Assembly (NCBI RefSeq): GCF_001610975.1
Contig: NZ_CP013342.1
Location: 3,729,001-3,793,000, forward strand
Direction of reading: 5' to 3'
DNA: 64,000 bases
Source: Sphingopyxis terrae subsp. terrae NBRC 15098
GTDB lineage: Bacteria > Pseudomonadota > Alphaproteobacteria > Sphingomonadales > Sphingomonadaceae
The position numbers and the translations under genes were made by a program. The notes beneath the pieces were generated by a model, which was not told the DNA's origin, ran no database searches, and saw nothing but the letters and a program-made list of their open reading frames with translations. Shown piece after piece: positions 3,086-39,177 of this stretch; position 1 is the stretch's first letter, and the number at the start of each line of letters is the position of its first letter.

Positions 3086-3108
3086 GCTCGGGCCGCAGTC
3101 AGCCAATT

Positions 3109-3191
3109 CGTCATCGCGAGCGGAGGGAAGCAACCCAGAGCAGATTACGCCCGCCCGGGATTGCCGCGTCGCTTCGCTCCTCGCAATGACG
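3109..3191. repeat. Palindromic intergenic repeat CGTCATYGCGAG
   Basis: The outer arms CGTCATCGCGAGCGGAGGGA (3109) and TCGCTCCTCGCAATGACG (3174-3191) are inverted copies. This looks like the common alphaproteobacterial dispersed repeat that begins CGTCATTGCGAG. It fills most of the gap between purN and the cardiolipin synthase gene. Confidence 0.75.
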
Positions 3192-3267
3192 CCAAGGATT
3201 CCCCACCTTTCCCCTTCCCCAAAATTCGCACTGGCATTTTGCGCCAAAGCACGATGAACTGGCGGCG

Positions 3268-21207: not shown

Positions 21208-21669
21208 CTATAGCGGCAGTTCGGTCGTCGACTTGATCTCGGACAGCGCGACCGTCGAATTGATTTCCTGGACGCCGGGCAGCTTGCTCAGCTGATCGAA
21301 GAAGAAGCGTTCATAGGCGTCGATGTCGCGCGCGACGATACGCAGCATGAAATCGGTCGTCCCCATCAGCACATAGGCATCGAGCACTTCGGGAAAGCCG
21401 CGGATCGTCGCGCTGAATTCATCAAGATTGGCGCGGCCGTGCGCGTTGAGCTTCACTTGCGCAAAGACATGCGCGTTCAGTCCGACCTTGCGCCGGTCGA
21501 CGATCGCGACGCGTTTCCGAATAAATCCCTCGCGCTCCAGCCGGTCGATACGCCGCCAGCAGGGCGACACCGACAGCCCGACGCGATCGGCGATCTCGGC
21601 GGTCGTCTGGCTCGCGTCGCGCTGCAATTCGCGAAGGATTTTTATCTCGAACGGATCAAGGTCGGTCAT
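21208..21669 (-). CDS. Lrp/AsnC-family transcriptional regulator
   Basis: A 153-residue regulator with an N-terminal winged HTH (DPFEIKILRELQRD, EIADRVGLSVSPCWRRIDRL) and a C-terminal RAM ligand domain (YVLMGTTDFMLRIVARDIDA, LPGVQEINSTVALSEIKSTT). It is divergent from the amino-acid dehydrogenase gene across about 150 bases, a classic arrangement in which an Lrp-type protein senses the amino acid and switches on its dehydrogenase. Its stop is two bases from the stop of the convergent CYTH-CHAD gene. Confidence 0.93.
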   Translation of the reverse strand: MTDLDPFEIKILRELQRDASQTTAEIADRVGLSVSPCWRRIDRLEREGFIRKRVAIVDRRKVGLNAHVFAQVKLNAHGRANLDEFSATIRGFPEVLDAYVLMGTTDFMLRIVARDIDAYERFFFDQLSKLPGVQEINSTVALSEIKSTTELPL

Positions 21670-21820
21670 TCATTTCCCATATCAGCAGATTTCCGGTTTC
21701 AAAATCCCCAAAATCACCAATGCGGACGAAAATGCGAACAAGTATGTCCGGCGACATGATGCGATAAGGCTGAGCGAATTTACACCGGCCATTCCGCCAA
21801 TCATTTCAAGGAGAACCATG

Positions 21821-22876
21821 ATGGTCAGCCGCCCCGCCCGTATGACCCCGCCGGTCGAATGCGTCCGCCTGTTCGATGCCGCCGCCGGCCTCGACGGCGT
21901 GATCGCAATTCACTCGACCGCGCTCGGGCCGGGCGCTGGCGGTTGCCGCCTGTGGCACTATGACGATGTCGATGGCGCGCTCGCCGATGCGCTGCGGCTG
22001 GCCGAGGGGATGAGCTACAAGAATGCGCTCGCGGGTCTGCCCTTCGGCGGCGCCAAGGCGGTGCTGCGCCGCCCCGCCGGCTCGTTCGACCGCACAGCGC
22101 TGTTCCGCGCTTTCGGCCGCGCGGTCGAGGCGCTCGGCGGGCTCTACGTAACCGCCGAGGACGTCGGCACCACCGTCGCCGACATGCAGGATATCGCGGG
22201 CGTCACGCGTCACGTCGCCGGCCTGCCCCCTGCGGGCGGCCGCGCGGGCGGCGACCCCTCGCCCTGGACCGCGCGCGGCGTCTTCGACGCGATGCAGGCA
22301 GCGGCGGCGCACACGCTGGGCCGCGACCTTACCGGCCTGACCGTCGCGGTGCAGGGCACGGGCAATGTCGGCGCCGACCTCTGCCGCCGCCTCGCCGACG
22401 CCGGAGCGCGGCTCGTCATCGCCGATCCGAACCCCGCGCGGCGCGACCGGCTCGCGGCGATCCACGGGGCAGAGGTCGTGCATGTCGACGACATCCTTCG
22501 CGTCGAAGCCGACATCCTCGCCCCCTGCGCCCTCGGCGGCGCCCTCAATGCCGAAAGCGTCGGCGGGCTGAAGGCGCGGCTGGTGTGCGGCGCCGCGAAC
22601 AACCAGCTCGCCGAACCGGCGGTCGCCGACCTGCTGATGGCGCGCGGCATCGCCTATGTTCCCGATTATGTCGCCAACGCGGGCGGGATCATCAGCGTGT
22701 CGGCCGAATATCTGGGCGAAGACGAAGCCGAGGTTGCGGCGCGCGTGGCGAAGATCGCTCCGCGCGTGACCGCACTCCTCGACCGCGCCGCACAGGAAGG
22801 ACGCTCGCCTGCCGTCGTCGCCGACGAAATGGCCGAGGAGGTCATCGCGGCCGGGGCACAGCGCGCGGCGGCCTGA
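21821..22876 (+). CDS. Glu/Leu/Phe/Val dehydrogenase (leucine dehydrogenase-like)
   Basis: An NAD-dependent oxidative deaminase, 351 residues, the length of leucine or phenylalanine dehydrogenases. Seen: GPGAGGCRLW, the substrate-binding and catalytic lysines in GMSYKNALAGLPFGGAKAVL, the TAEDVGTTVADMQ segment, the nucleotide-binding VAVQGTGNVGADLCRRLADA, and GAANNQLAEP. The ATG at 21821 lies seven bases after AAGGAG; an ATG three bases earlier is also possible. Substrate choice cannot be settled from sequence. An ACT-like gene follows with no gap. Confidence 0.9.
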   Translation: MVSRPARMTPPVECVRLFDAAAGLDGVIAIHSTALGPGAGGCRLWHYDDVDGALADALRLAEGMSYKNALAGLPFGGAKAVLRRPAGSFDRTALFRAFGRAVEALGGLYVTAEDVGTTVADMQDIAGVTRHVAGLPPAGGRAGGDPSPWTARGVFDAMQAAAAHTLGRDLTGLTVAVQGTGNVGADLCRRLADAGARLVIADPNPARRDRLAAIHGAEVVHVDDILRVEADILAPCALGGALNAESVGGLKARLVCGAANNQLAEPAVADLLMARGIAYVPDYVANAGGIISVSAEYLGEDEAEVAARVAKIAPRVTALLDRAAQEGRSPAVVADEMAEEVIAAGAQRAAA

Positions 22877-23120: not shown

Positions 23121-24299
23121 CTATTTCCCCTGCGCCGCGACGACGCGCAGGATGTTGCCGCTCCACATTTTTTCGATGTCAGCGTCCGAATAGCCTGCGG
23201 CCTTCAGCCGTTCAGTGACTTTCGGCAAGGCCGAAATATCCTCGATGCCCTTCAGGCCGCCGCCGCCGTCCCAGTCGGCGCCGAAGCAGATATGATCGAC
23301 GCCGCCGACCTCGATCGCGCGTAGCACCATCTTCATATAATCCTCAAAATCCGCGGCCCACATCGCCTCGCTCTTGTCGAGTTCGCGCCACTGACGCGTC
23401 AGGTCCGCCTGCGCTTCGGGCGTAATCTCGCCGATATGCTCATATTCTCCGAACAGCTTGGCGCGCGCCGGCGACATGTTCATCTCGGACATGAAGATCG
23501 TCGAAATGCACATCGCCCCGCCCTTTTCGGCCAGCTTGCGCAAGCGTCCTTCGTCTAGGTTTCGTGGATGGTCATGCGCCGACCGCAGGCTCGAATGCGA
23601 GAGCAGGATCGGATATTTCGACAATTGCAGGATCTGGTCTAAGGTCGCGTCCGACGAATGGCTCGCGTCGATCACGATGCCCAGCCGGTTCATTTCGGCC
23701 ACCCATTGCTTGCCGAGCGGGCTCAGCCCGTTCCAGCGCGGCTTGTCGGTCGCGCTGTCGGCAAATTCATTGTTCGCCGAATGGACCGGCCCCGCCAGCC
23801 GCACGCCCTTGTCATAGAACTCCTGCAACAGCGAGAGATCCTCGCCGAGCGGATAGCTGTTCTCCATCGACTTGAAGGCGACGAGCTTGCCTTCCTTGTT
23901 CAGCCGCCGCGCATCCTCGGCGGTGCGCGCCGCGCCGATGACACCGCTGTTGTCGGCGATCATCTTGTCGATCAGGTCGGACCGTTTGCGCGCATGGGCA
24001 AGCGCCGCGGCGTAGCCCGCCGGGGTCAACGGCCCCTGTTCGGTGTAGATGGCAAAGAAGCCGCCATCGAGATTGCCGTCGCGCATCCGCGGGATATCGA
24101 GCTGCGACAGGTCGGTCGCCAGATCGTGCCGGTCGGCAAAGTTCCATCCCTGCCTCTCGAAATGAAGCGGCGTGTCGAGATGGGTGTCGAGCACCAGCAT
24201 CCGGCTGTGCAGCGGCGGCGGCGCCGCCTGCGGCTTGTCGCCCGCCGCCGAACAGGCGGACAGCGCGGCGGCGGCGAGCAGAATGGCAATGCGCTTCAC
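23121..24299 (-). CDS. M19 (renal dipeptidase-type) dipeptidase, lipoprotein
   Basis: A 392-residue dipeptidase with a lipoprotein signal (ILLAAAALSACSA, Cys near 16). M19 enzymes cleave dipeptides and accept D-residues at the C-terminal side. All dinuclear-zinc ligands are visible: the HxD in LDTHLDTPLHF, Glu in FKSMENSYPL, His in VIDASHSSD, His in LLSHSSLRS and Asp in FGADWDGGG. Its ATG overlaps the stop of the upstream hydrolase gene by four bases. It is the last gene of the long minus-strand operon. Confidence 0.92.
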   Translation of the reverse strand: MKRIAILLAAAALSACSAAGDKPQAAPPPLHSRMLVLDTHLDTPLHFERQGWNFADRHDLATDLSQLDIPRMRDGNLDGGFFAIYTEQGPLTPAGYAAALAHARKRSDLIDKMIADNSGVIGAARTAEDARRLNKEGKLVAFKSMENSYPLGEDLSLLQEFYDKGVRLAGPVHSANNEFADSATDKPRWNGLSPLGKQWVAEMNRLGIVIDASHSSDATLDQILQLSKYPILLSHSSLRSAHDHPRNLDEGRLRKLAEKGGAMCISTIFMSEMNMSPARAKLFGEYEHIGEITPEAQADLTRQWRELDKSEAMWAADFEDYMKMVLRAIEVGGVDHICFGADWDGGGGLKGIEDISALPKVTERLKAAGYSDADIEKMWSGNILRVVAAQGK

Positions 24300-25873
24300 T
24301 TCTTGTCCTCCACGGGCTTGAGGTCGAGATCCTGATAATCCCAGCTGAAATCGGCGATCATGCTGACGGGCTTCATCGTCACGCCGGTCACCTTGCCGTC
24401 GGCGTCGAGCGCGAAGGTCACATAGGCGGGCTCGATCGCGGGATCGTCGAATTCGGTGACGAAGCTGTCATACTGCCAATGCTTGAGCCGCCCCGCCATG
24501 CGCGGGGTCGAGGTGAAGTCGATCGTCAGCCCCTTCGCCCCGTCGGCGATCACGACATCGCCGTACCACGGATCGCGATAGCGCCCCGCATAGCCCGCGG
24601 GCTTCAGCGACGGGCCGACCTTCGCCGGCGATGCCTTCGCCTGTTTCAGATAATCGACGCCGCCCGCCAGCCGAGCCTCGAACCAGTCCTGCCATTTGGT
24701 CGTCCAGCCATAATCGGGTGCCCCGAGATAATGGTCGAGCAGCTCGTAGGTCAGCCCCAGGATCATCCCGCTGTCCTCGCTGTTCATCATGATCGCAAAG
24801 CCGACATTCTTGTCGGGAATCATCACGACGCGCGTGATCGAACCGAACACGCCGCCGCTGTGCTGGATGATGCGGTGGCCGCGATAATCCTGCACCTGCC
24901 AGCCGAGCGCATAGGCCTGCTGCATCGGCTGCGCGGGTTTCAGGCTGTCGGGCAGTTCGGTGATCGGCATCGGCGTTACCGGGGTCCACATCTGCTTCGC
25001 TTGTTCCTCGCTGAACAGCCGTCCGCCGCCCGGCAGCGCGCCATGCGCAAGCTGGATCTTCAGCCACGCCGCCATATCGTCGGCGCTCAGCGCCAGTCCG
25101 CCCGCGGGCGCCCCGTTGCGGCCGAGCTCGTCGCGTTCGTCGAGCGCCTGCTGCGGCCCCAGCCCGCGCAGCGCCCCCGACAGGCGCGCATGCGGCCACG
25201 AGCGGTTGGGGATACGGAAGCGGTCTTCGCTATCGCTCGTCGCATTCTTCATGCCGCCGGCGCGCAGCACATGCTCGCGGATGAAATCCTCCCAGCGCTG
25301 GCCGGTCACCTCCTCGATCAACTGCCCGGCAACGGCATAGAGGATATTGTCATAGGCATAGGCCGAGCGGAAACTCGTCTTGGGCTTGAGAAAGGCGACG
25401 CGCTCGACCGTCTGCTTGCGCGTCAGATAGGTGCGCGGCACGAACATCAGGTCGCCCTGCCCCAGCCCCAGCCCGCTCCGGTGGACGAGCAGATCGCGGA
25501 TCGTGATCTCGCGCGTGACCCACGGGTCGTTCATGCGGAACCACGGCATATGCTTGATGACCGGATCGTCCCACGCGATCTTGCCCTGATCGACGAGCAC
25601 CGCCAGCGCGGCGGCGGTCATCGCCTTGCCGGTCGATCCCGTCTGAAAGATGGTTTCGGCGTCGACCGGCGCGCTCTCGCCCAGCTTGCGCACGCCCCAG
25701 CCGCGCGCCAGCGTCGTCCGGCCGTCCTCGACGATCGCGATCGACACGCCGACCGCGCCGATCTTCTGGCGCAGCGCCTCGACGCTGTCGCCGATGTCGG
25801 CGGGCGGCTCGGCCCAGGCGGGCACCGAAAGGGCGAGCATCAGCGATGCCGCCAGCAGACGCGCGGATTTCAT
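24296..25873 (-). CDS. Exported beta-lactamase-fold serine hydrolase with C-terminal DUF3471-like domain
   Basis: A 525-residue periplasmic protein with a Sec signal (LLAASLMLALSVPAWAEP). The class C beta-lactamase/DD-peptidase motifs are SxxK in TGSTGKAMTAA (near residue 80), YxN in YAYDNILYAV and HSG in QHSGGVFGS. The last 100 residues (PAGYAGRYRDPWYGDVVIAD and on) match the DUF3471 tail common in D-aminopeptidase-like members. Likely a peptidase or amidase acting on D-residue peptides. It overlaps the next gene by four bases and the transporter gene upstream by four. Confidence 0.85.
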   Translation of the reverse strand: MKSARLLAASLMLALSVPAWAEPPADIGDSVEALRQKIGAVGVSIAIVEDGRTTLARGWGVRKLGESAPVDAETIFQTGSTGKAMTAAALAVLVDQGKIAWDDPVIKHMPWFRMNDPWVTREITIRDLLVHRSGLGLGQGDLMFVPRTYLTRKQTVERVAFLKPKTSFRSAYAYDNILYAVAGQLIEEVTGQRWEDFIREHVLRAGGMKNATSDSEDRFRIPNRSWPHARLSGALRGLGPQQALDERDELGRNGAPAGGLALSADDMAAWLKIQLAHGALPGGGRLFSEEQAKQMWTPVTPMPITELPDSLKPAQPMQQAYALGWQVQDYRGHRIIQHSGGVFGSITRVVMIPDKNVGFAIMMNSEDSGMILGLTYELLDHYLGAPDYGWTTKWQDWFEARLAGGVDYLKQAKASPAKVGPSLKPAGYAGRYRDPWYGDVVIADGAKGLTIDFTSTPRMAGRLKHWQYDSFVTEFDDPAIEPAYVTFALDADGKVTGVTMKPVSMIADFSWDYQDLDLKPVEDKK

Positions 25874-27009
25874 GGTCGAACCTCCTGCATGGACGAGGGG
25901 CCCCGCTTGACGAGGCGATAGGTGCCGATCCCAAGCAGCGGGACGACGTAAACGGCCAGGAACAGCCAGGCGAGGATGCGGTATCCGCTCGCGATCAGGT
26001 CGACGAGCCCGACGCGCGCCGCGACGAACATGCAACCCGCCAGGATGGCCGCGCCGATCAGCGCGCGTCCCGCGGTGCCGGGCGCCGCGCGACCGCGCGC
26101 CTCGAACGCACCCGCGATCCGTTCGTTGATCGCATGGATCGCCCCCACCCCGCTTTCGAGCAGCGCGGTGAAGATCATCAGCTGGAACAGCAGGTGAAAG
26201 CCCGGCACCGCCATCTGCCGCAAAAGAAAGTCGGAGGGCAGCGTCTCGTCGCCGATGCCGGGATAAAAGGCCATCATCGCCACGAAGAACAGGATCGCGG
26301 GCAGCATGGTCAGCGGCCCGGCGATCGCGCCCGCGATCAACGCGTCGCGGCGGCTCGTCAGGTGGCGCAGCACCGGCAGCACGACGACCGCCCCGACGAT
26401 GTTATAGCTCGCATAGGTGATGCCGCCCGCCATCCACCCGTCCGCCGGCGGTCCGGCCGCGGCGAAACCCGCGCCGATGCGGTCGCCAAAGCGGGTCAGC
26501 GCAAAGAAGAGGAACAGCGCATAGACCGCATAGATCAGCATCGAGGCATATTTGAACAGGCGCTCGACCCCCGCTTCGCCGAACGCGGTCGCGAACAGGA
26601 TCGCGGCGGCCAGCACGACCGCTCCCATCAGTTCGGGCCAGCCGAAGGTCGCCGCGCCGATCGCGCCGGCGGCGGCGCCGAACACCGCGAGGATCAGCAC
26701 GACGAAGATCAGATAGGCCGCCTCGAACAGCACCCAGCCGGGGCCGAGCAATTGCTGAAAGAAGCTGCGATAGTCATAGGCGTGCAATTGCCGCGCGAGC
26801 GCGAAGGTCAGCGCCGCGACGACGCTCCAGATCAGCGTCGCGAGCAGCATCCCGGCAAGCCCGCCCCACGGTCCGGCCGGCACGAAATATTCGGCCAGTT
26901 CGCGGCCCGTCGCATAGCCGCCGCCGATGATGACCGCCTTCAGCGCGAAACCAGGCAGCAGAAAGCGCTGAAACCAGCTCCCTCCGCTGCCCGCCTCGCC
27001 CACCATCAC
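25870..27009 (-). CDS. YkvI-type integral membrane protein, putative amino-acid or peptide transporter
   Basis: A 379-residue protein of about ten membrane segments, starting with FLLPGFALKAVIIGGGYATG, which resembles the first helix of APC-superfamily carriers (glycine-rich broken helix). It matches the YkvI family, whose substrates are not established. It starts with GTG at 27009 (or ATG at 27006), overlapping the dgcN stop, and ends overlapping the serine hydrolase. The tight coupling to dgcN makes D-glutamate or a D-Glu peptide the best substrate guess. Confidence 0.75.
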   Translation of the reverse strand: MMVGEAGSGGSWFQRFLLPGFALKAVIIGGGYATGRELAEYFVPAGPWGGLAGMLLATLIWSVVAALTFALARQLHAYDYRSFFQQLLGPGWVLFEAAYLIFVVLILAVFGAAAGAIGAATFGWPELMGAVVLAAAILFATAFGEAGVERLFKYASMLIYAVYALFLFFALTRFGDRIGAGFAAAGPPADGWMAGGITYASYNIVGAVVVLPVLRHLTSRRDALIAGAIAGPLTMLPAILFFVAMMAFYPGIGDETLPSDFLLRQMAVPGFHLLFQLMIFTALLESGVGAIHAINERIAGAFEARGRAAPGTAGRALIGAAILAGCMFVAARVGLVDLIASGYRILAWLFLAVYVVPLLGIGTYRLVKRGPSSMQEVRP

Positions 27010-28046
27010 GCGAGACAGTTTTCGACGAGCGCCGCGAACGCCGCGCCGCCGCGGATCGGATCGGCGACCGGCAGGCCCAGCCGTGCCGCCTCCGCCGCCA
27101 TCAGCGCCGCGGCCGCATCGGCATCATAGCCCGAGGTGTTGAGGCTGACGCCGCCGCAGCGGATCGCGGGATTGGTCCGGCCGCCGAGCCGGATCGTCAG
27201 GTCGATCACCTCCTCGATGCTCGGCAGGGCGAAGCTTTCCATTCCCAGAATGACCGTGCGCGTCGGATCGTGGCAGACGACGAATACGTCTGGCTGGCTG
27301 CCGTGGAGCAGGCCGAGCGATACCGCGGCATAGGCGGGGTTGAAGATCGACCCCTGCCCCTCGATCAGATCCCAGTGATCGGCAGGCGCGTCGGGGCTCA
27401 GCATTTCGGCGGCGCCCGCTTCGAAATCCGACACCACCGCATCCATCGGCATCCCGCCGCCCGCGATCATGATCCCCGTCTGCCCGGTGGCACGGAAATC
27501 GGCGTCGATCCCGCGCTCGGCAAAGGCGCGGTGCAGCGCCAGCGCGGTATATTTCTTGCCCAAGGCACAATCGGTGCCGACGGTCAGCAGCCGCTTGCCG
27601 CTGCGCTTGCGGCCGTTGCCGATCGGAATCGAAGGCGGCGGGGTGCGAACGTCGATCAGCCGCTGGCCGGTGCGCCGCGCCGCATCGGCGAGCGCGGGGA
27701 TGCTCGTCAGCCGGACGTGAAGCCCGCTCACGATGTCGAGCCCCGCCTCCATCGCCTCGACGAGCACCGCGACCCAGCTGTCGCCGATAATGCCCCCCTG
27801 ATTGGCGACGCCGATGACCAGCGAACGCGCTCCCGCCGCCCGCGCCTCTGCCGGCGACAGGTGCGGCAGGCCGGTGGTGACGGTGCAGCCGCCGATCCCC
27901 CATTCGCCGACGCAGCGGTCGGCGGCCCAGTCGGCAAGGCCAAAGGCGGTCTTGGCATAGCCCGCCTCAGTCGTGTCGCCCAGAAAGAGCAGATAGGGCT
28001 GCGGGAGGGTGAGCTGGCTGTCCAGCCGGCCCGTCGGCGCGTTCAT
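27006..28046 (-). CDS. dgcN: DUF1611 protein, D-glutamate N-acetyltransferase DgcN
   Basis: A 346-residue DUF1611 protein with the N-terminal Rossmann-like part (YLLFLGDTTEAGYAKTAFGL) and a C-terminal P-loop part with LTVGTDCALGKKYTALALHR. In the D-glutamate route described from marine Proteobacteria, a DUF1611 protein (DgcN) makes N-acetyl-D-glutamate and DgcA, an enolase-superfamily enzyme, epimerises it to N-acetyl-L-glutamate. A DgcA-like gene lies at 31501. The ATG at 28046 has CGGAG eight bases ahead; a TTG at 28070 is less likely. The assignment rests on family plus pairing. Confidence 0.75.
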   Translation of the reverse strand: MNAPTGRLDSQLTLPQPYLLFLGDTTEAGYAKTAFGLADWAADRCVGEWGIGGCTVTTGLPHLSPAEARAAGARSLVIGVANQGGIIGDSWVAVLVEAMEAGLDIVSGLHVRLTSIPALADAARRTGQRLIDVRTPPPSIPIGNGRKRSGKRLLTVGTDCALGKKYTALALHRAFAERGIDADFRATGQTGIMIAGGGMPMDAVVSDFEAGAAEMLSPDAPADHWDLIEGQGSIFNPAYAAVSLGLLHGSQPDVFVVCHDPTRTVILGMESFALPSIEEVIDLTIRLGGRTNPAIRCGGVSLNTSGYDADAAAALMAAEAARLGLPVADPIRGGAAFAALVENCLA

Positions 28047-28066
28047 CGCTGTCACTCCGCTTTCGT

Positions 28067-30253
28067 TCAAAAGGCCATGTCGATCGCGACGCCGATCGTG
28101 CGCGGCTGCAACGGCGAGATCGACAGGAAGCTCGGCTGGTTCAGCCCGTCCGCCATCGTCGAGCGCGCCATCTCGCCCTTGTTGTCGAACAGGTTACGCG
28201 CGTAGGCGCGCAGCGTCCAATGGCCGTCCCACGTCACCGACGCATTGAGGTCGACCGAGGTATACGGCTCGGCGCGCGCGGTCAGAGGATCGCTTTCGAC
28301 CAGCGACAAGCGGCTGCTCGCGTGGCGGATGCCGGCGCCGAGGCTGCCCTTGGCGCTGCCGCCCAGCTCAAAGTCGTAGTCGGCGCGGAGCGCGCCGCTG
28401 AACTTCGGCACCGCTGGCAAACGGTCGCCCTTCGCTCCGCTGATTTCGGGAACATCCTCGCTCAGCGAGGCGTCGGTGTAGCTGCCGGTCGCGCTGATCG
28501 TCAGGCCCGGCGCCGGGCGAAAGGCGATGCTGCCCTCGAAACCCTTGCTCGTCGCCTTGCCGCCGTTGGCCCCGCCATTGACCCCGCCGAACGAGCGGAC
28601 GACCTGAATGTCGGTCCAGTCCATCCAGAAGGCGGCGACATCGACCGTCACCATCCGGTCGGCCAGATCGGCCTTCAGTCCGACCTCATAGTTGGTCATG
28701 CGGTCGGCGGATACCGTCGGGGGCACATTGGGAACGATGACGTTCGGGCCGCCCGGACGGTAGCCGGTGGCGACGCGGCCGTAGAGCATTGCGTCCTTGT
28801 TTATGTGAAATTGCGGGCTGACCGAAAAGGTCCAGACGCTCTCTGCAGAGCTTCCCGGATCGTCGGCCTGGGGCACGATCGCGCCCGAGCTAATCTGGCG
28901 GAACGTCTGCTTGTTGCGCGCCCAGCGTAGCCCGCCGGTCACGTCGAACTGCTCGGCGAGCTTCAGCGTCGCATTGCCGAAGATCGCATATTCCTTGTAG
29001 GTCGCGGGCAGCCCGACGATCGCCAGCGGATCGAGCCCGGCGATCGGATCGCCGTTCATGTCATAGGACCGCACAAGCTGCGCGTTGCTCGTCTTCTCGT
29101 CGGTGAAAAAGCCGCCGATCATCCATTCGAACCGCCCGCCGCTTGGCGAGGTCAGCCGGACTTCCTGCGTCCACTTCTTGAGCCCGAGGTCGAGGTAAAA
29201 CGGCGTGATGCCCGGATCGACCGCGCCATCCGTAAGCAGCGGAAAGAGTACGCCGAAAGCATAGCTCGCATCCTGCACCTGACGGCTCTTCGTCTTGCTG
29301 TAGGTGGTCGCAGAGGTCAGCGTTGCCGCGCCGAAATCATAATCGACCGTCGCCGAATAATAATCGAGCGAAATATCATAGGATTCGGGGACATAATTGT
29401 TGAACGAATGGCCGTTGCCGAGCCGGTTGCCCGCAAGATCCGCGGCATAGAGGCCGTTGCCGTCCGAATTGAGCGACTGCCAAATGCCCGCCAGCTTGAC
29501 GCTCAATTGCGGCGTTGGTTGCCAGAGCAACGCCGCGCGGCCGCCGCGCTGTTCGAAATCATTCTGATCGGTCAGCCCGGAATTATTGACGCTGTCGACC
29601 CAGCCCGGGCTCCTGCGCCAGGCGAAACTGCCGCTGATCGCCAGCGTGTCCTGCGCGATCGGGACGTTGACATAGGCTTGCGCGCCCCAGCCGAGACCAC
29701 CTGCATCCTTGATCGAAAAGCCCTCGAGCCCGGCGCGCACGCGGAATTCATGCGTGTCGGGTTGCACCGTGACATATTTGACAAGGCCGCCGATCGAGCT
29801 CGCACCATACAGAGTGCCCTGCGGACCCTTCAGCACTTCGACGCGATCGAGGTCATAGGGCATCAGGTCGATCGTGAAGGCTCCCGCGCGATTGTAGATC
29901 GCGCTCGATCCGACCGGCGCATCGTCGAGATAGATGCCGACCGTCTGCGCGGCGCTCAGCGGTGCGACGCCGCGCAGCGTGATCGTCGTCTGCCCCGGCG
30001 TGCCGCCGTTGCTCACGTTCATGCCGGGAACATAGCCGGCATAATCGACGAGCGAGGCCGAACCCTGCTGCTGGATATCCTCACCGCCGACCACGCTGAT
30101 CGAAATCGGCACGTCCTGCACGTTCTGCACGCGCTTCTGGGCGGTGACGACGATCTCGCCGCTATATTCCGCGCCGCCCGCTTCCTGCGCCTGCACCGGC
30201 ATCGCCACCGCGAGCGCCGCGATGCTGCTTGCAATCCAAAGACCCTGTTTCAT
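28067..30253 (-). CDS. TonB-dependent outer-membrane receptor
   Basis: A 728-residue receptor with a signal peptide (cleavage after AMPVQAQ), a plug domain beginning GEIVVTAQKRVQNVQDVPIS and a 22-strand-type barrel ending in a C-terminal Phe (GVAIDMAF). The plug has TLRGVAPLSAAQTVGIYLDD and RVEVLKGPQGTLYGASSIGG. No siderophore or vitamin partner is nearby; it lies between an M19 dipeptidase (4-base gap) and dgcN (20-base gap). This points to uptake of peptides or muropeptides, as inferred from context. Confidence 0.92.
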   Translation of the reverse strand: MKQGLWIASSIAALAVAMPVQAQEAGGAEYSGEIVVTAQKRVQNVQDVPISISVVGGEDIQQQGSASLVDYAGYVPGMNVSNGGTPGQTTITLRGVAPLSAAQTVGIYLDDAPVGSSAIYNRAGAFTIDLMPYDLDRVEVLKGPQGTLYGASSIGGLVKYVTVQPDTHEFRVRAGLEGFSIKDAGGLGWGAQAYVNVPIAQDTLAISGSFAWRRSPGWVDSVNNSGLTDQNDFEQRGGRAALLWQPTPQLSVKLAGIWQSLNSDGNGLYAADLAGNRLGNGHSFNNYVPESYDISLDYYSATVDYDFGAATLTSATTYSKTKSRQVQDASYAFGVLFPLLTDGAVDPGITPFYLDLGLKKWTQEVRLTSPSGGRFEWMIGGFFTDEKTSNAQLVRSYDMNGDPIAGLDPLAIVGLPATYKEYAIFGNATLKLAEQFDVTGGLRWARNKQTFRQISSGAIVPQADDPGSSAESVWTFSVSPQFHINKDAMLYGRVATGYRPGGPNVIVPNVPPTVSADRMTNYEVGLKADLADRMVTVDVAAFWMDWTDIQVVRSFGGVNGGANGGKATSKGFEGSIAFRPAPGLTISATGSYTDASLSEDVPEISGAKGDRLPAVPKFSGALRADYDFELGGSAKGSLGAGIRHASSRLSLVESDPLTARAEPYTSVDLNASVTWDGHWTLRAYARNLFDNKGEMARSTMADGLNQPSFLSISPLQPRTIGVAIDMAF

Positions 30254-30257
30254 CGCC

Positions 30258-31412
30258 TTACCCCCACACTTGCGCGAGCAGGCGGCGGAAATTGCCCCCC
30301 AGCACCGCGCGGATGTTATCGTCCGAATAGCCGCGACGGATCAGTTCCTCGGTCAGGTCGAAGACCTTGAGCGGGTGGTCGAAACCGTCGATGTCGATCT
30401 TGTCGCGAAAGGCATAGCTGTCCTTGTAGCTTGCCTTCAGCGCCGCATATTCCGCCGGCGCCATGTCGTCATAGCCGTTGAGGTCGGCGTCGGACCCGAT
30501 GCCGACATGCTCGATCCCGACCAGCTTGGCGACATGGTCGATATGATCGGCCATATGGCCGACATTGGTGGGGTCGCTCGCGCGGACGAACATCCGCACT
30601 CCGGTGATCCCCATAACCCCACCCTTGGCGGCGAGCGCCTTGATTGCCTCGTCGGTCTTGACCCGCGGATGGTCGACCAGCGCGCGCGCATTGCTGTGGG
30701 TGATCGCGATCGGCCCCTTGGCGAGCGCGATCGCGTCGAGCGTGGTGCGGTCGCCGCAATGAGACACGTCGATCAGCATCTTCGCCCGCTCCATCGCGTC
30801 GATGATCGCCGCGCCATAGTCGCTGATCCCGCCATCAACTCGGTCGGTGCTGCCCGACCCGATGCGGTTCTGGCTGTTATAGGTGAGTTGCGCGCAGCGC
30901 AGGCCCAGCCGGCGAAAGACCGCGACATCCTCGACGCCGTCGAACTGGTCGGCATTCTGGATGCCCATGATGACGGCGCATTTGCGCATCGCCTTTGCCC
31001 TGTCGAGGTCGTCCACCGTGTCGACGAGCGAAAAAACATGGCCGTTGCGCCCGACGAAGCCCTGCCACCCCGCCATATATTCCATCGCCTGCGCCCGCGC
31101 ATCGGGGCCGCCCAGACCGAAGCTGTTGTGGAAGCCCGTGATCCCGCTCGCGCGAAACTCCCCCGCCTCGGCATCGGTGAGGCGGTGCGCGATATAATCG
31201 GCTGCCATCGTGATCTTGAGCGGCGCGAGCATGTCGATCACCAGCGAGGCGGCGACCAGATCGACGGCGCGCGTCGAATAGCTGCGCGCCGGCGTCGCCG
31301 CGAAGGCATAGGCACCGCGCCCGATCATCGGCGCTGCGATCGTCGCAGACAAGGCTGTCCCGACCGCGCCCGCCACAAAGGCGCGGCGCGTCGCCGGGAA
31401 TGACGCGGTCAT
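30258..31412 (-). CDS. M19-family dipeptidase homologue with altered metal site, Tat-exported
   Basis: A 384-residue protein starting with a twin-arginine signal (ATRRAFVAGAVG). It follows the M19 fold with His in LIDVSHCGD, His in AITHSNARA and Asp in GIGSDADLNG. The first metal motif HxD is replaced by DML in LVIDMLAPL, and the bridging Glu is replaced by Gln in MGIQNADQF. It may use one metal or a different chemistry. The ATG at 31412 follows GGAGGGTGG; a GTG at 31424 is possible. First gene of the operon that runs to 23121. Confidence 0.82.
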   Translation of the reverse strand: MTASFPATRRAFVAGAVGTALSATIAAPMIGRGAYAFAATPARSYSTRAVDLVAASLVIDMLAPLKITMAADYIAHRLTDAEAGEFRASGITGFHNSFGLGGPDARAQAMEYMAGWQGFVGRNGHVFSLVDTVDDLDRAKAMRKCAVIMGIQNADQFDGVEDVAVFRRLGLRCAQLTYNSQNRIGSGSTDRVDGGISDYGAAIIDAMERAKMLIDVSHCGDRTTLDAIALAKGPIAITHSNARALVDHPRVKTDEAIKALAAKGGVMGITGVRMFVRASDPTNVGHMADHIDHVAKLVGIEHVGIGSDADLNGYDDMAPAEYAALKASYKDSYAFRDKIDIDGFDHPLKVFDLTEELIRRGYSDDNIRAVLGGNFRRLLAQVWG

Positions 31413-31447
31413 TCCACCCTCCACCTCAAGAAAATTTCACTTTCAAG

Positions 31448-31487
31448 ACTATTGTCCTAATCAGAAAATTGTCAACCCATTTAGGAC
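31448..31487 (-). promoter_or_regulatory. Promoter and candidate operator of the M19-TonB-dgcN operon
   Basis: On the minus strand, TTGACA (complement of 31470-31475) is followed after 16 bases by AATAGT (complement of 31448-31453), 36 bases before the M19 start. An inverted repeat GTCCTAA (31454-31460) and TTAGGAC (31481-31487) brackets the -35 box. The 21 bases at 31455-31475 match the promoter at 34591 in 18 positions, with the 12-base core GAAAATTGTCAA identical in both. This arrangement suits a repressor, probably the XRE-cupin protein. Confidence 0.65.
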
Positions 31488-31500
31488 AGGATAATTCATA

Positions 31501-32511
31501 TCAGCCGCCACCCCACAGGCTCGGCGGACAATGGATCTTGCCGTCGCGATAGGTGACGCCGGGCTCGCGGTCGCGCGCGAGGAACGTCGGCCCGTCGAGG
31601 TCGACGATGTCGCAGAGCTGCCCCACGAGGTAGGATGGCGCCATCGACAGGCTGGTGCCCATCATATTGCCCACCATCACGTCGAGCCCCAACCGCCGCG
31701 CCTGCCGCGCGATCGCCAGCCCCTCGGTCAGCCCGCCGCACTTGTCGAGCTTGATATTGACGACATCGAAGCGCCCGACGAGCGAGGCGGTGTCGGCGAG
31801 CGACAGCGCGCTTTCGTCGGCAACGAAGGGCAAGGGCCGCTTGATCCCGTCGAGGTCGGCCTCGCGCCCGCGCCGCAGCGGCTGTTCGAGCTGCGCGATG
31901 CGATGCGCGACGAGCAGCGGCAACAGATCGCCCAGCGTAGCGCGGTCATAACCCTGATTGGCATCGACGCCGATCCACGCATGCGGCCGCGCCGCGCGGA
32001 TCGCGGCGATGCGCGCCGCGTCAAGGTCGACCTCGCCCGTCAGCTTTACCTTCACCGGCGCGTGCGGGTCGATCGCCAGCGCGGCGGCGGCCATCGCTTC
32101 GGGGCTGTCGGCGCCGAGCGTCAGCGTCGAGCGCAGCGCGCGCGGCGGGTCGAGCCCGGCCAATTCCCAGACGGGCTTGCCCGCACGCCGGGCCTCGAGA
32201 TCCCAGAAGGCGCAGTCGATCGCGTTGCGCGCGCCGCCGGGGGGCAGCAGATGCTGCAGATCCTCGCGCGTCGCGCCCCCTTCGATCGCGGGCCGCACCC
32301 GCGTCGCTTCGGCGAGCATATGGTCGATATCGTCGCCGAGGTAATAAACCCCCGCCCCCTCGCCGCGGCCCTCATGGCGGCCGTCGGACAGGGTGGCGAC
32401 GAGCAGCGCAGTCTCGGTGAACACATGGCCCGCGATGCGGAACGGCTGGTGATAGGGAAAACGCTCGACGCGAAGGTCGAGCGTCAGTCCGGTCATGACA
32501 TCGGCCGTCAT
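31501..32511 (-). CDS. dgcA: Enolase-superfamily racemase/epimerase, N-acetyl-D-glutamate racemase DgcA
   Basis: A 336-residue muconate-lactonising/dipeptide-epimerase subgroup enzyme. Catalytic lysines lie on opposite faces: KVKLTGE (near residue 160) and NIKLDKCGG (near 264). Metal ligands are in GVDANQGY, LEQPL and ADESAL. Two opposed lysines mark 1,1-proton-transfer racemases. DgcA-type enzymes convert N-acetyl-D-Glu to N-acetyl-L-Glu; L-Ala-D/L-Glu epimerase is the alternative and would also suit muropeptides. The ATG at 32511 shares one base with the upstream hydrolase stop. Confidence 0.8.
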   Translation of the reverse strand: MTADVMTGLTLDLRVERFPYHQPFRIAGHVFTETALLVATLSDGRHEGRGEGAGVYYLGDDIDHMLAEATRVRPAIEGGATREDLQHLLPPGGARNAIDCAFWDLEARRAGKPVWELAGLDPPRALRSTLTLGADSPEAMAAAALAIDPHAPVKVKLTGEVDLDAARIAAIRAARPHAWIGVDANQGYDRATLGDLLPLLVAHRIAQLEQPLRRGREADLDGIKRPLPFVADESALSLADTASLVGRFDVVNIKLDKCGGLTEGLAIARQARRLGLDVMVGNMMGTSLSMAPSYLVGQLCDIVDLDGPTFLARDREPGVTYRDGKIHCPPSLWGGG

Positions 32512-34487
32512 CAGTAGACCATGCCGAAGCCATAGAGGTGGAAGTGCAGCGTCAGCCAGACGAGCACCAGCGCCGACAGCAGCAACAGCACCGCCCCCAG
32601 CTTCATCGTCCAGCGGCGCTTGTCCTTGATGCACAGCCACAGGTGCCACGCGCTCGTCGCCAACAGGCCAAGGCTGGCGATCGGCGTCAGCACGCGCAGC
32701 AGGATGATCAGCCAGTCGAGCGGGCCGCCGACGCTCCCGATATCGCCCGAGAAGGTGACGATGAACATCGCCCATCCGGCGACCGCCGCGATGACGAGCC
32801 ACGCGAACAGCCGCGACAGCCGCCACGCGCGCCGCGCCTGGCCTTCGAGCGCAAAGGTCGCGCCATAGCTGCGGCGGACCAGCGCGCGCACCGGCCACGC
32901 GAGCGCCGCAAGCAGCACGAGCAGCAGCGCTGCGATCAGCGCCGGGTTCAGCCAGGCGACATTTTCGCCCGCCGGGGCCGGCCAGAAGACCATGAAGGGC
33001 GACGCGGCATCCAGGCTGATGCGCACGACGCGTCCGTCCTTGACCTCGGCAGCGAGCCGTTCGCCGGTGCCGGTGTCGCGCCACACAAAGGGCTCGACTT
33101 CGACCCAGTCGCGCGGTCCGGCGCTCAGCCCGTCGAGCGCGGGCATCGCGATCTTGCCGTCGGTTCCGACCACGATCTGCGCCTGGCCGAGCAGGCCGAA
33201 CAGGCTCATGAAATTGGTGAAGGACCCGCGGCTCGACACATAATGGCCGGCCAGCATCGCGGCATGGTCGCGCGCAGTCTTTTCATCGACCTGTCCGGGC
33301 TTGGGCGTGCCGGGCAGATAGCGGTCGGCGAACTGGTGGAACAGCGCGCTGCGGATCGCGCCCGCTGCGCCTTCCTTGCCGGGGCTGTTCATCGACACGA
33401 ACAAGCCGATGTCCGAATCGGGGAACAGCCACAGATAGCTGTGGAACCATTCGGTATCGCCGCCGTGCGCGATCGCGCGATGCCCGTTGACCCATTGTTC
33501 GTAGAAGCCGAGCGCCATGCTGTTGAGCGGGCCGACGCCGGGCGCCTTGTAATCGTGCATCAGCTTCGCCGTCTCGGGCTTCAGCAGCACGCCGCCGTTG
33601 TTCAGATGCGCCATCATGAACTTGCCCATGTCGCCGCCCGACGCCGACAGGCTGCCCGCGGGGGCCGGCACGACGATTTCGAAGGGCTTGGCCTTGTCGG
33701 TCATCACGCGGTAGCCGCTCGACATGAAGGGCGCGAGCGCGGCCGGCAGCGGCTGGCGGAAGCTCGCATATTTCATGCCCAGCGGCGCAAAAATGTGCCG
33801 ATCGATATAATCATCGAAGGATTCGCCGCTGGTGCGCTGAACGATGTATCCGGCCAGCGCGGTCGCATAGTTGGAATAGGCGGGCGTGCTTCCCGGCGCA
33901 AAAACCCGCGCGGGCAGCGCTTCGCGCGCATAATCCTTCAGCGGCATCACCGCCTTGGGATCGCTGCTGATCAGATAGCGGATCGATTCTTCAAAGCCCG
34001 CGGTGTGCGTCATGATATTGCGCAGCGTCACCGGCTTGCCCTCGAAGGGCGGAATCTTGAAATCGAGATAGGTGTTCACATCCTTATCGAGGTCGAGCTT
34101 ACCGGCTTCGACAAGCTGCATCACCGCGGTCCAGGTAAACAGCTTCGACACCGAACCGGGGCGAAACAGCGTCGTCGCGGGATCGACGGGCTTGCGCGAC
34201 GCGACATCGGCAAAGCCATAGCCCTTCTGCAGCACCGTGCCGCCGCCGCGCACCACGACGACGACCGCACCGGCAACCTCGCCGCGCGCGAGCGCATAGG
34301 GCATGAAACCGTCGAGCCACGCCTCGACATCGGCGGCGTCGAGCTTGGCCGCGCCCGCGGGCGGCGGCGGCACGGCCGGCGTCTGCTCCGCCGGCTTGGC
34401 GGCAATCTGCTGCACCGGCCCCTGCGCGGCCAGCGGGACGGCCGCCAGCACTCCCAATCCTATCATAAGCTTGCGAAGGAAACGCAT
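32511..34487 (-). CDS. Beta-lactamase-fold serine hydrolase with C-terminal membrane segments
   Basis: A 658-residue protein with an N-terminal signal or anchor (LMIGLGVLAAVPLAAQG). The beta-lactamase domain (about 45-395) has SxxK in PGSVSKLFTW, YSN in AYSNYATALAGY and HGG in AHGGDTEWFH. A linker domain and four membrane segments follow from about residue 515, the last being LGAVLLLLSALVLVWLTLHF. So the catalytic part is tethered in the periplasm. The ATG at 34487 follows GGGGGA; upstream in-frame codons lack a site. It is cotranscribed with dgcA through a one-base overlap. Confidence 0.83.
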   Translation of the reverse strand: MRFLRKLMIGLGVLAAVPLAAQGPVQQIAAKPAEQTPAVPPPPAGAAKLDAADVEAWLDGFMPYALARGEVAGAVVVVVRGGGTVLQKGYGFADVASRKPVDPATTLFRPGSVSKLFTWTAVMQLVEAGKLDLDKDVNTYLDFKIPPFEGKPVTLRNIMTHTAGFEESIRYLISSDPKAVMPLKDYAREALPARVFAPGSTPAYSNYATALAGYIVQRTSGESFDDYIDRHIFAPLGMKYASFRQPLPAALAPFMSSGYRVMTDKAKPFEIVVPAPAGSLSASGGDMGKFMMAHLNNGGVLLKPETAKLMHDYKAPGVGPLNSMALGFYEQWVNGHRAIAHGGDTEWFHSYLWLFPDSDIGLFVSMNSPGKEGAAGAIRSALFHQFADRYLPGTPKPGQVDEKTARDHAAMLAGHYVSSRGSFTNFMSLFGLLGQAQIVVGTDGKIAMPALDGLSAGPRDWVEVEPFVWRDTGTGERLAAEVKDGRVVRISLDAASPFMVFWPAPAGENVAWLNPALIAALLLVLLAALAWPVRALVRRSYGATFALEGQARRAWRLSRLFAWLVIAAVAGWAMFIVTFSGDIGSVGGPLDWLIILLRVLTPIASLGLLATSAWHLWLCIKDKRRWTMKLGAVLLLLSALVLVWLTLHFHLYGFGMVY

Positions 34488-34554
34488 CGCTTTATCCCCC
34501 TTATCCGGCGCGCCGCGCGACATGCTTGCAGCGAGCCGCGAGACGCCTTACCAA

Positions 34555-34574
34555 GGGTCAGCAATAAGTGACCC
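34555..34574. promoter_or_regulatory. Inverted repeat GGGTCA-N8-TGACCC
   Basis: A perfect 6-base inverted repeat with an 8-base spacer between the divergent hydrolase-dgcA operon and the XRE-cupin gene. It lies just downstream of the predicted minus-strand -10 box, where a bound protein could block initiation. It may be a second operator for the regulator. Confidence 0.4.
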
Positions 34575-34583
34575 AATGCGGAC

Positions 34584-34611
34584 ATAATGATCCTGATTGG
34601 AAAATTGTCAA
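34584..34611 (-). promoter_or_regulatory. Promoter and shared regulatory element upstream of the hydrolase-dgcA operon
   Basis: On the minus strand, TTGACA (complement of 34606-34611) is followed after 16 bases by CATTAT (complement of 34584-34589), about 95 bases before the hydrolase start. The 21-base block 34591-34611 is 18/21 identical to 31455-31475. It also ends 20 bases before the XRE-cupin ATG, so one bound protein could affect both directions. Conservation extends through the spacer, not only the -35 box, which argues for an operator. Confidence 0.6.
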
Positions 34612-34631
34612 ATGAGGAATGGACCGACCCG

Positions 34632-35255
34632 ATGACATCCCGATCGAATCCCCCGACGCTCGGCGAGGTCATGCGGGGAATTCGCACCCGAAATGGCTGG
34701 ACGCTCAAGGAAATGAGCGCGCGCTCGGGCATCCCGGTATCGACGCTGTCGAAGGTCGAACATGACCGGCTGACGCTCAGCTACGACAAGCTGCAACAGC
34801 TCAGCCAGCGGCTCAACATCCGCATGTCCGACCTGTTCGCCGAAGATGCGGGGGACAGCGCGCCGCGCGTCACCGGCCGGCGCAGCGTCGGCACCATCGA
34901 CACCGCGGTTCGCGTCACCACCGACAATTACGACTATCATTATCTCTGCACCGACCTGCGGCAAAAGCGCATGATCCCTATCATCACGCGCATCCGCGCG
35001 CGCAGTGCGAGCGAATTCGGCGAGCTCGTCCACCACCAGGGCGAGGAGTTCATCTATGTCATCGAAGGACGGATCGAAGTGCACAGCGAATTTTACGATC
35101 CCGTGGTCCTCGACGCGGGTCAGGGCATCTATATCGATTCGTCGATGGGTCACGCTTATGTCGTCGCCGACGGCTGCGACGAGGCGCTGGTCCTCGGCGT
35201 CTGCTCGAGCGCCGACGAAGGGTTGATGGATTCGCTGATGAGCCTCCATGCATAG
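34632..35255 (+). CDS. XRE-family regulator with C-terminal cupin domain
   Basis: A 207-residue regulator with an HTH (WTLKEMSARSGIPVSTLSKV, about 19-40) and a cupin ligand domain (GEEFIYVIEGRIEVHSEFYD, VLDAGQGIYIDSSMGHAYVV). Such proteins often repress amino-acid or polyamine catabolism and sense the substrate. An in-frame ATG at 34587 would place the shared promoter element inside the coding region, and the element's twin is intergenic. I therefore choose the ATG at 34632, though its GAGGA site is rather far. Its stop overlaps the deacylase gene by eight bases. Confidence 0.88.
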   Translation: MTSRSNPPTLGEVMRGIRTRNGWTLKEMSARSGIPVSTLSKVEHDRLTLSYDKLQQLSQRLNIRMSDLFAEDAGDSAPRVTGRRSVGTIDTAVRVTTDNYDYHYLCTDLRQKRMIPIITRIRARSASEFGELVHHQGEEFIYVIEGRIEVHSEFYDPVVLDAGQGIYIDSSMGHAYVVADGCDEALVLGVCSSADEGLMDSLMSLHA

Positions 35256-36945
35256 CCGCTCGCCCTTCGTCGCGGCGCTGCTCGCCAGCTCGCTGCTCCT
35301 TTCGGCCTCGGCCGGCGCGCGCGGCGCGGCCCCTGCCTATGACGTCGTCATCCGCGGCGGGACGCTCTACGACGGTTCGGGCGCCGCCCCCGTCGTTGGC
35401 GATATCGCGCTGAAGGGCGACCGCATCGTCGCGGTCGGCACGGTCGCGGGCCGCGGCCGGACCGAGATCGACGCAAAGGGCATGGCTGTCGCGCCCGGCT
35501 TCATCAACATGCTGAGCTGGGCAACCGAATCGCTGATCGCCGACCCGCGCAGCCTCAGCGACATCCGCCAGGGCGTGACGCTCGAAGTGATGGGCGAAGG
35601 CTGGTCGATGGGCCCGTTCAACGCGACGATGAAGGCGCAGGAGACCGAGCGTCAGGGCGATATCAAATATGACATCAGCTGGACGACGCTGGGCGATTAT
35701 TTCGCCTATCTCGAAAAGCGCGGCATTGCGCCCAATGTCGCGAGCTTCGTCGGTGCGGCGACAGTGCGCGTGCACGAACTGGGCGAAGGCGATGTCGATC
35801 CCACCCCCGAACAGCTCGCGCGGATGCGCGCGCTCGTCCGTCAGGCGATGGACGAAGGCGCGCTGGGGGTCGGCAGTTCGCTGATCTATGCCCCCGGCTC
35901 CTATGCCGAGACCGACGAACTCGTCGCGCTGACCAGCGAGGCGGCGCGCTGCGGCGGCATGTATATCAGTCATATGCGCTCGGAAGGCGACCGGCTTGAG
36001 GAAGCGGTCGACGAACTGATCGCCATCGCGCGCCGGTCGGGCGCGCCGGCCGAAATCTATCACCTCAAGATGGCCGGCCGCGCGAACTGGGACAAATTCG
36101 CGCCCGTCGTAGCGAAGATCGAGGCGGCGCGCGCCGCGGGAACGCGGATCACCGCCGACATGTACACCTATACCGCGGGCGCCACCGGGCTCGACGCCGC
36201 CATGCCGACCTGGGTTCAGGCGGGCGGACTGGAAGCGTGGATCGAGCGGCTGAAGGATCCGGCGATCCGCGCCCGCGTCGCGGCCGAAATGAAAAGTCCG
36301 GGCAGCGACTGGGAGAATCTCTACATCGGCGCGGGTGCCGACAAGATGATCCTGACAGGCTTCAAGAATGACGCGCTCAAGCCGCTCACCGGCAAGACGC
36401 TGGCCGAAGTGGCGGCGATGCGCGGAAAATCGCCCGAGGAAACCGCGATGGACCTTGTCGTCGAGGATGGCTCGCGCGTCGGGACCGTCTATTTCCTGAT
36501 GTCGGAAGACAATGTCCGGCGCCAAATCCAGCTTCCCTGGATGAGCTTCGGCTCGGACGCCGCATCGCAGGCGGCCGAGGGCGTGTTCCTGAAGTCGGGC
36601 GCCCACCCACGCACCTATGGCAATTTCGCGCGCCTGCTCGGCCGCTATGTTCGCGACGAAAAGCTGATCCCGCTCGAAGAGGCGGTGCGGCGGCTGACCT
36701 CGCTCCCCGCGGGTAACCTCAACCTTCAGGATCGCGGCGCGCTGCGCCCCGGCTATTTCGGCGATGTCGTGATCTTCGATCCGGCGACCGTCGGCGACCG
36801 CGCGACCTTCGAAAAGCCGCACCAATATGCGACCGGCGTGCGCGATGTGTTCGTCAACGGTACCGCGGTGCTGCGCGGCGGCGACCCGACCGGCGCGACG
36901 CCGGGCAAGGCGGTACGCGGATCGGGCTGGAAGCGCTGCTCCTGA
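35248..36945 (+). CDS. Exported N-acyl-D-amino-acid deacylase-like amidohydrolase, lacking the HxH motif
   Basis: A 565-residue amidohydrolase-superfamily protein with a signal peptide (VAALLASSLLLSASAGARGA). The start of the mature part (YDVVIRGGTLYDGSGA, then GMAVAPGFI) is that of D-aminoacylases. The His in YISHMRSEG, His in IYHLKMAG and Asp in FGSDAASQA match metal and catalytic positions. The usual HxH after APGFI is replaced (APGFINMLSWATES), and VTLEVMGEGWS has Glu where D-aminoacylases carry Cys. A one-metal enzyme is possible. It overlaps the XRE-cupin gene by eight bases. Confidence 0.82.
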   Translation: MHSRSPFVAALLASSLLLSASAGARGAAPAYDVVIRGGTLYDGSGAAPVVGDIALKGDRIVAVGTVAGRGRTEIDAKGMAVAPGFINMLSWATESLIADPRSLSDIRQGVTLEVMGEGWSMGPFNATMKAQETERQGDIKYDISWTTLGDYFAYLEKRGIAPNVASFVGAATVRVHELGEGDVDPTPEQLARMRALVRQAMDEGALGVGSSLIYAPGSYAETDELVALTSEAARCGGMYISHMRSEGDRLEEAVDELIAIARRSGAPAEIYHLKMAGRANWDKFAPVVAKIEAARAAGTRITADMYTYTAGATGLDAAMPTWVQAGGLEAWIERLKDPAIRARVAAEMKSPGSDWENLYIGAGADKMILTGFKNDALKPLTGKTLAEVAAMRGKSPEETAMDLVVEDGSRVGTVYFLMSEDNVRRQIQLPWMSFGSDAASQAAEGVFLKSGAHPRTYGNFARLLGRYVRDEKLIPLEEAVRRLTSLPAGNLNLQDRGALRPGYFGDVVIFDPATVGDRATFEKPHQYATGVRDVFVNGTAVLRGGDPTGATPGKAVRGSGWKRCS

Positions 36946-39113: not shown

Positions 39114-39177
39114 TGAGTATCATCATACCGGGACGTACCGTGAACTTTGACAACTTCCAGCAAAAGGATCCGCAAAT

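Follow-up and report, generated by a model that had tools for sequence, protein, structure and literature searches.

Does the DgcN–DgcA gene pair found among peptidase, receptor and carrier genes in Sphingopyxis serve the known D-glutamate route, or does it act on other D-amino acids? The pair lies in a 64,000-nucleotide stretch of DNA from Sphingopyxis terrae subsp. terrae NBRC 15098 (the window, the whole stretch that was analysed), within one compact operon of eight co-directional minus-strand genes. The operon runs from 34523 down to 23121 and encodes, in order, an S12 serine hydrolase, a DgcA-like enolase, an M19-like protein, a TonB receptor, a DgcN-like protein, a YkvI-like carrier, an S12 hydrolase with a DUF3471 domain and an M19 dipeptidase. 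Junctions are mostly 4-nucleotide overlaps or short gaps, the largest (76 bp) preceding 31424, and the genes for an XRE-cupin regulator and a D-aminoacylase-like enzyme diverge from the operon on the plus strand. Our answer, to which we give an even chance of being correct, is that this would be a regulated scavenging operon for peptides with non-acidic, probably hydrophobic or aromatic, D-amino acids. Gene content and order, their conservation, a separate enolase clade with residue changes and a conserved 32-bp block are all visible in the sequence, and the operon is a well conserved, operon-scale variant of a known pathway, not an ordinary one. Its features are given below; the genes around the window DgcA were set by hand (the first gene caller overlooked that DgcA) and export signals were judged by eye.

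21208..21669, minus strand: Lrp/AsnC-family regulator, divergent from the dehydrogenase gene (Pfam AsnC_trans_reg/HTH; NCBIfam Lrp 96.6 bits, cut-off 233)
21815..22876, plus strand: leucine/tryptophan/phenylalanine-dehydrogenase-like gene, convergent with the operon (PDB matches; start picked by eye)
23121..24299, minus strand: M19 dipeptidase with a lipobox-like signal (LSAC; Pfam 301.8 bits; closest PDB entry 2rag, 421 bits)
24296..25873, minus strand: S12 serine hydrolase with DUF3471 and a Sec-like signal (Pfam; top PDB entry 7spn (IS11), 103 bits)
25870..27009, minus strand: YkvI-like putative inner-membrane carrier (hydrophobic sequence; no library match)
27006..28070, minus strand: DgcN-like protein (DUF1611), export signal not seen (Pfam; NCBIfam DgcN 447.5 bits; PDB 7xrj, 342 bits)
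28067..30253, minus strand: TonB-dependent outer-membrane receptor (Pfam Plug and barrel)
30258..31424, minus strand: M19-like protein with a Tat-like signal (RRAF; Pfam 250.8 bits; closest PDB entry 2i5g, 133 bits)
31501..32496, minus strand: DgcA-like enolase-superfamily epimerase/racemase, G-type, export signal not seen (NCBIfam DgcA 358.4 bits; clade support 100/98)
32511..34523, minus strand: S12 serine hydrolase with C-terminal hydrophobic segments and a Sec-like signal (Pfam 206.2 bits; sequence)
34581..34612, minus strand: 32-bp conserved promoter/operator-like block (TTGACA, then CATTAT 16 nucleotides on)
34632..35255 (first-listed start 34587), plus strand: XRE-cupin regulator (Pfam HTH_3 and Cupin_2; block position)
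35248..36945, plus strand: D-aminoacylase-like amidohydrolase with a Sec-like signal (Pfam Amidohydro_3; PDB D-aminoacylase 253 bits, N-acyl-D-Glu deacylase 223 bits)

From these features we infer the reactions, the transport directions, the substrate and the pairing of regulator and operator. The TonB receptor would import a D-residue peptide. Once in the periplasm, it would be cut to D-amino acids or short L-D peptides by the exported pair of S12 hydrolases, by the M19 dipeptidase that keeps its metal ligands and by the aminoacylase-like enzyme; the YkvI-like carrier would take the product in. N-acylation of the D-amino acid would be the task of the DgcN-like protein, and its inversion to the L form that of the G-type DgcA-like enolase; the resulting L-amino acid would be deaminated, here possibly by the adjacent Leu-type dehydrogenase, with the XRE-cupin protein controlling the operon at the 32-bp block. 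The initial annotation of this locus had proposed the same layout, from import and trimming in the periplasm to uptake through the inner membrane and conversion in the cytosol, which fits the export signals and the conserved gene set. Its S12, M19, DUF1611, TonB, enolase, XRE-cupin and Amidohydro_3 genes were all found where it had placed them, and only its YkvI label lacks a match in Pfam, NCBIfam or the PDB; it had listed neither the Lrp/Leu-type dehydrogenase pair (21208-22876) nor the 32-bp block (34581-34612).

Conservation and regulation of the operon

Along with its gene list, the initial annotation had proposed a neighbourhood search. The operon was compared with 80 relatives, the closest DgcN-like loci, which were picked by similarity to the window DgcN and some of which are clipped by contig ends. 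All seven core genes are present in 46 of the 80, a gene set conserved beyond chance, and the window order is kept in 42 of those 46. Individually, matches to the window proteins were found for DgcN in 80 loci, the second S12 in 78, the carrier in 70, DgcA, the first S12 and XRE in 67 each, the TonB receptor in 57, M19 in 56, M19-like in 46 and the aminoacylase in 43. The hosts include Sphingopyxis, Sphingomonas, Erythrobacteraceae, a Blastomonas bin, Rudaea (with a rearranged order) and a Luteimonas bin (lacking M19), and the operon type is present also on Sphingobium and Croceicoccus plasmids. The host genome is 3.98 Mb, and the DgcN-like protein of the S. terrae NBRC 15098 locus is 99% identical to that of the window. 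Literature searches, which reached few subscription papers, turned up no paper on this operon.

The TonB receptor is swapped among relatives at a fixed position in the operon. Where DgcN identity reaches 78% or more and a receptor was matched (39 loci), the receptor is at least 80% identical in 23, about 50-60% in four and at most 42% in 12, and it differs even inside one genus (39% in L051 against 82% in L056). Phage escape or a change of ligand are possible causes.

The 32-bp block lies between the regulator and the operon and is free of mismatches in 39 of the 79 Gly-type loci (defined below), with at most one mismatch in 42; within eight mismatches it was not found in 20 of the 79, nor in any of 48 Arg-type loci, and a reversed-pattern control gave 0 of 160 loci at the same limit. 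Its flanks are little conserved (45 loci at no more than one mismatch). No wider regulon was found, the genome holding a single copy at up to three mismatches. The block, which opens with TTGACA, overlaps the first-listed regulator start at 34587; as the N-terminal extension that this start would give lies under conserved block sequence, the real XRE-cupin start is probably 34632.

Two types of DgcA-like enolase

Position 21 (E. coli numbering) served to type the DgcA near each DgcN; it is Gly in 80 rows (79 loci), Arg in 48 and other or unaligned in three; a further 31 DgcN have no DgcA within 8 kb. In a tree of 87 reduced rows, all 40 Gly-type rows fall on one side of a single branch (100/98), a single origin, and the E. 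coli L-Ala-D/L-Glu epimerase (AEE) nests among the Arg-type rows (100/99). Support for the Arg group as such is weak (87/71). Basic residues stand at E. coli positions 21, 24 and 50 in 48, 41 and 41 of 48 Arg-type rows, whereas at these positions the Gly type has Gly (80/80, by definition), Phe (75/80) and Tyr (79/80). The two types also differ at position 179 (Gln in 79/80 Gly-type against Glu in 44/48 Arg-type rows), 251 (Cys in 79/80 against Thr in 40/48) and 275 (Asn in 78/80 against Cys in 47/48). The catalytic lysines and acidic metal ligands (K149, K151, D178, E204, D227, K249 and K252) are invariant in 43 chosen sequences; the catalytic lysine pair of the epimerases is described in the accessible part of PMC5808125, and its mapping onto the alignment columns is our own.

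The 20s and 50s loops play a role in enolase specificity. In solved epimerases the 20s-loop residue is Arg in E. coli, B. subtilis, 3r0k and 4gfi and Gly in T. maritima, 3jva and 3q45 (one column later in B. subtilis, 3r0k, 3jva and 3q45 than in the others), and we take the substrates of 3jva, 3q45 and 3r0k to be Tyr, Val and Glu dipeptides, respectively. As far as the accessible part of PMC5808125 goes, the E. coli and B. subtilis epimerases are Glu-specific and the T. maritima enzyme takes L-Ala-D/L-Phe, -Tyr and -His as substrates; the accessible part of PMC13338154 adds hydrophobic C-terminal residues to the latter. The basic residues lost in the Gly type presumably bind the Glu side chain in the Arg type. 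The Gly-type loop residues argue for a non-acidic side chain, since the 20s-loop Gly matches the T. maritima enzyme and the Arg matches the Glu-specific enzymes.

The neighbourhoods divide in the same way. Within 8 kb and at more than 200 bits, using profiles seeded mostly from window-like loci, S12 proteins are found near 76 of 80 Gly-type but 0 of 48 Arg-type enolases, the carrier near 70 and 1, the TonB receptor and M19 each near 57 and 0, and the aminoacylase near 24 and 16; the rows are related, so these counts are not independent. Most of the Gly-type rows entered the set through their similarity to the window, and such loci also supplied most of the profile seeds, so a fairer figure is that for the later additions of lower similarity (from L112 onwards): at least one of S12, TonB, M19 and carrier is present in 13 of 15 later Gly-type loci (five of which were among the profile seeds) against 1 of 48 Arg-type loci. 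By family, these 15 loci have S12 in 11, the carrier in eight, TonB in six and M19 in four. The sole Arg-type exception, L190, has the carrier only and lies outside the Arg group. Of the 31 DgcN without a nearby DgcA, 24 have at least one of the four families. A gene for a POT di/tripeptide transporter stands directly behind the G-type enolase in six loci (L206, at 3098-4447, L078, L089, L094, L102 and L104), the hosts being Rudaea, Luteimonas, Sphingobium (two), Allosphingosinicella and one Croceicoccus plasmid.

The family models place the window pair apart from the typical members. DgcN and DgcA are the best-scoring NCBIfam families, as the initial annotation had it, but both proteins fall under the equivalog cut-offs (DgcN-like, NF041892, 447.5 bits against 480; DgcA-like, NF042940, 358.4 against 400), and the enolase also falls under that of the L-Ala-D/L-Glu epimerase model (NF011708, 231.5 against 343). 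A Sphingopyxis paralog pair clears both (DgcN 510.2, DgcA 424.6 bits). Six genomes of the genus carry a window-kind DgcN plus a second DgcN (50-55% identical to that of the window) paired with an Arg-type DgcA, and near this second pair, among the families searched for, there is little beyond an aminoacylase. Across 398 genomes of the phylum, DgcN exceeds the cut-off in 62, and full-length matches score either at least 499 bits or 434-469 bits (eight sequences). The DgcN tree has the same broad split as the enolase tree (97/89) with more mixing. The host genome holds a second DgcA/AEE-like enolase with the loop Arg (C1:2072363-2073319, L134), beside a MarR regulator, and no second DgcN; a family scan of L134 and of the 10 neighbours of this enolase found no peptidoglycan genes.

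Of the two proteins initially annotated as M19 dipeptidases, that at 23121-24299 keeps all six metal-ligand positions (HxD, E, H, H, D, which we take from the renal-dipeptidase ligand list), as do 52 of 52 members of its family. The M19-like protein at 30258-31424 has lost the HxD and the Glu, three of the six, in all 46 family members that are at least 60% identical, and its activity is doubtful or different. The SxxK and YxN motifs are kept in 60 of 60 sequences of the S12+DUF3471 family and in 51 of 55 of the S12 at 32511-34523; after 7spn, the PDB matches of the former are a Pab-type protein related to the penicillin-binding proteins (PBP), the ClbP peptidase and alkaline D-peptidase (63-73 bits). 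The carrier at 25870-27009 had no match in Pfam, NCBIfam or PDB profile searches, so that the YkvI-type label could not be verified, and its plasmid homologs, where annotated, are named hypothetical protein or membrane protein. Two haloarchaeal carrier homologs (L204 and L207, on Haladaptatus plasmids) sit between an IclR regulator and an annotated maleate cis-trans isomerase gene, and no DUF1611 gene is listed in either stretch.

The dehydrogenase at 21815-22876 matches leucine dehydrogenases at 270-291 bits in the PDB, tryptophan dehydrogenase at 231, phenylalanine dehydrogenases at 191-193 and glutamate dehydrogenases at 98 at most. Its gene lies close by in 15 of the 79 Gly-type loci, in one of the 31 that lack DgcA and in none of the 48 of Arg type; this association lends modest support to a hydrophobic amino acid as the substrate. 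Some match is present in all but one of the 35 genomes searched.

Weighing the substrate

The initial annotation favoured salvage of D-Glu or L-Ala-D-Glu from muropeptides by the ordinary DgcN–DgcA route, and the family assignments and the D-peptide-type hydrolases around the pair are what that route would predict. So is a GH108 muramidase-like open reading frame at 38546-39181 (plus strand; 60.7 bits, with a peptidoglycan-binding domain match just below its cut-off), 1.6 kb past the aminoacylase gene; however, it has no match in the 162 loci compared (the S. terrae locus stops just short of its place), and the operon contains no peptidoglycan endopeptidase or amidase genes. Of the 169 families that 117 neighbour proteins match, the 25 most frequent include no peptidoglycan hydrolase family, and the Arg-bearing enolase elsewhere in the genome likewise has no peptidoglycan genes among its 10 neighbours. 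This reading is weakened because both key enzymes fall below cut-offs that the Sphingopyxis paralog pair passes; the window enolase lies outside the Arg-type group and lacks the three basic loop residues, and a Leu-type dehydrogenase accompanies some G-type loci. We now consider D-Glu an unlikely substrate. The degradation of microcystin-like cyanobacterial peptides, the weaker alternative from the start, is weaker still and highly improbable: related operons do occur in Sphingosinicella microcystinivorans (L100) and Sphingopyxis microcysteis (L033), but PF07364, which we take to stand for the MlrC-type protein, has no members in the host genome, S. microcysteis or S. terrae against four in S. 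microcystinivorans (the control), and Rudaea, Luteimonas and other unrelated taxa carry this operon type as well.

A rather less improbable, though still doubtful, alternative is that the operon handles L-X-D-Y dipeptides, the enolase epimerising them to L,L forms that ordinary peptidases would split and DgcN and the carrier forming a second branch for free D-amino acids. The POT gene supports this for the lineages that have it, and on two plasmids the enolase carries the NCBI name "dipeptide epimerase"; POT is, however, present in just five of the 160 loci that were typed and in one of the two examined on plasmids, and the window operon has none. The DxD motif (D299, D301) is invariant in the 43-sequence alignment, as dipeptide epimerisation would predict, but Arg-type DgcA keeps it too. 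Moreover, DgcN and the enolase occur together in 67 of 80 loci, which suits sequential steps.

Several observations weigh against the proposal of non-acidic D-amino acids. The DxD motif suits dipeptides as much as N-acyl amino acids, and the Gly type has conserved Arg residues of its own (window positions 170, 80/80, and 209, 77/80) that could bind a carboxylate. Position 21 is an imperfect divider, since the Arg group excludes three Arg-labelled rows (L135, L137 and L190) and the Gly-type clade includes L138, which has Asn. The DgcN-like protein may still prefer acidic substrates because it has almost no clean group-specific residues: strict limits left two columns, one of them a C-terminal extension (82 near against 21 less similar sequences, grouped by identity to the window and not by DgcA type). 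The accessible part of PMC12363236 gives acidic D-amino acids and their amides as the substrates of DgcN. The dehydrogenase ortholog stands away from the window-kind DgcN in six genomes of the Sphingopyxis genus (G035, G097, G166, G214, G290 and G329) and occurs in three genomes without a DgcN match (G080, G201 and G295).

D-amino acids form a large, slow pool of organic matter, and environmental surveys count dgcN as a gene for D-Glu use, according to the accessible part of PMC12363236. If a branch of the family does act on other residues, some of these counts would be misread, and the operon would supply a candidate receptor, carrier and peptidases for D-residue peptides. More broadly, and tentatively, the proposed non-acidic specificity would define a second DgcN–DgcA branch, in which hydrophobic D-amino acids would be inverted one way through N-acylation and racemisation. 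With its own TonB receptor and D-peptidases, such a branch may serve to consume peptides that contain D-residues, nonribosomal ones for example, and may have spread, in part on plasmids, among sphingomonads and certain Gammaproteobacteria, its receptors being interchangeable.

Comparison with known systems

The closest known system is the DgcN–DgcA D-glutamate pathway (NF041892, NF042940), with which the operon has in common the two protein families, mostly encoded side by side, and probably the sequence of N-acylation then racemisation. It differs in its separate enolase clade, its scores below both cut-offs, its other loop residues and its large operon for putative peptide import and trimming. 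With the dipeptide epimerases (E. coli YcjG, B. subtilis YkfB and T. maritima AEE) the window enolase shares the enolase family, the catalytic Lys pair and the DxD motif, and with T. maritima AEE also the 20s-loop Gly; unlike them, it scores under the NF011708 cut-off, is linked to DgcN and adjoins no peptidoglycan endopeptidase. The S12 hydrolases share their family and the SxxK, YxN and HxG motifs with the D-peptidases ClbP and alkaline D-peptidase, but match these at only 63-69 bits, and one copy carries a DUF3471 domain.

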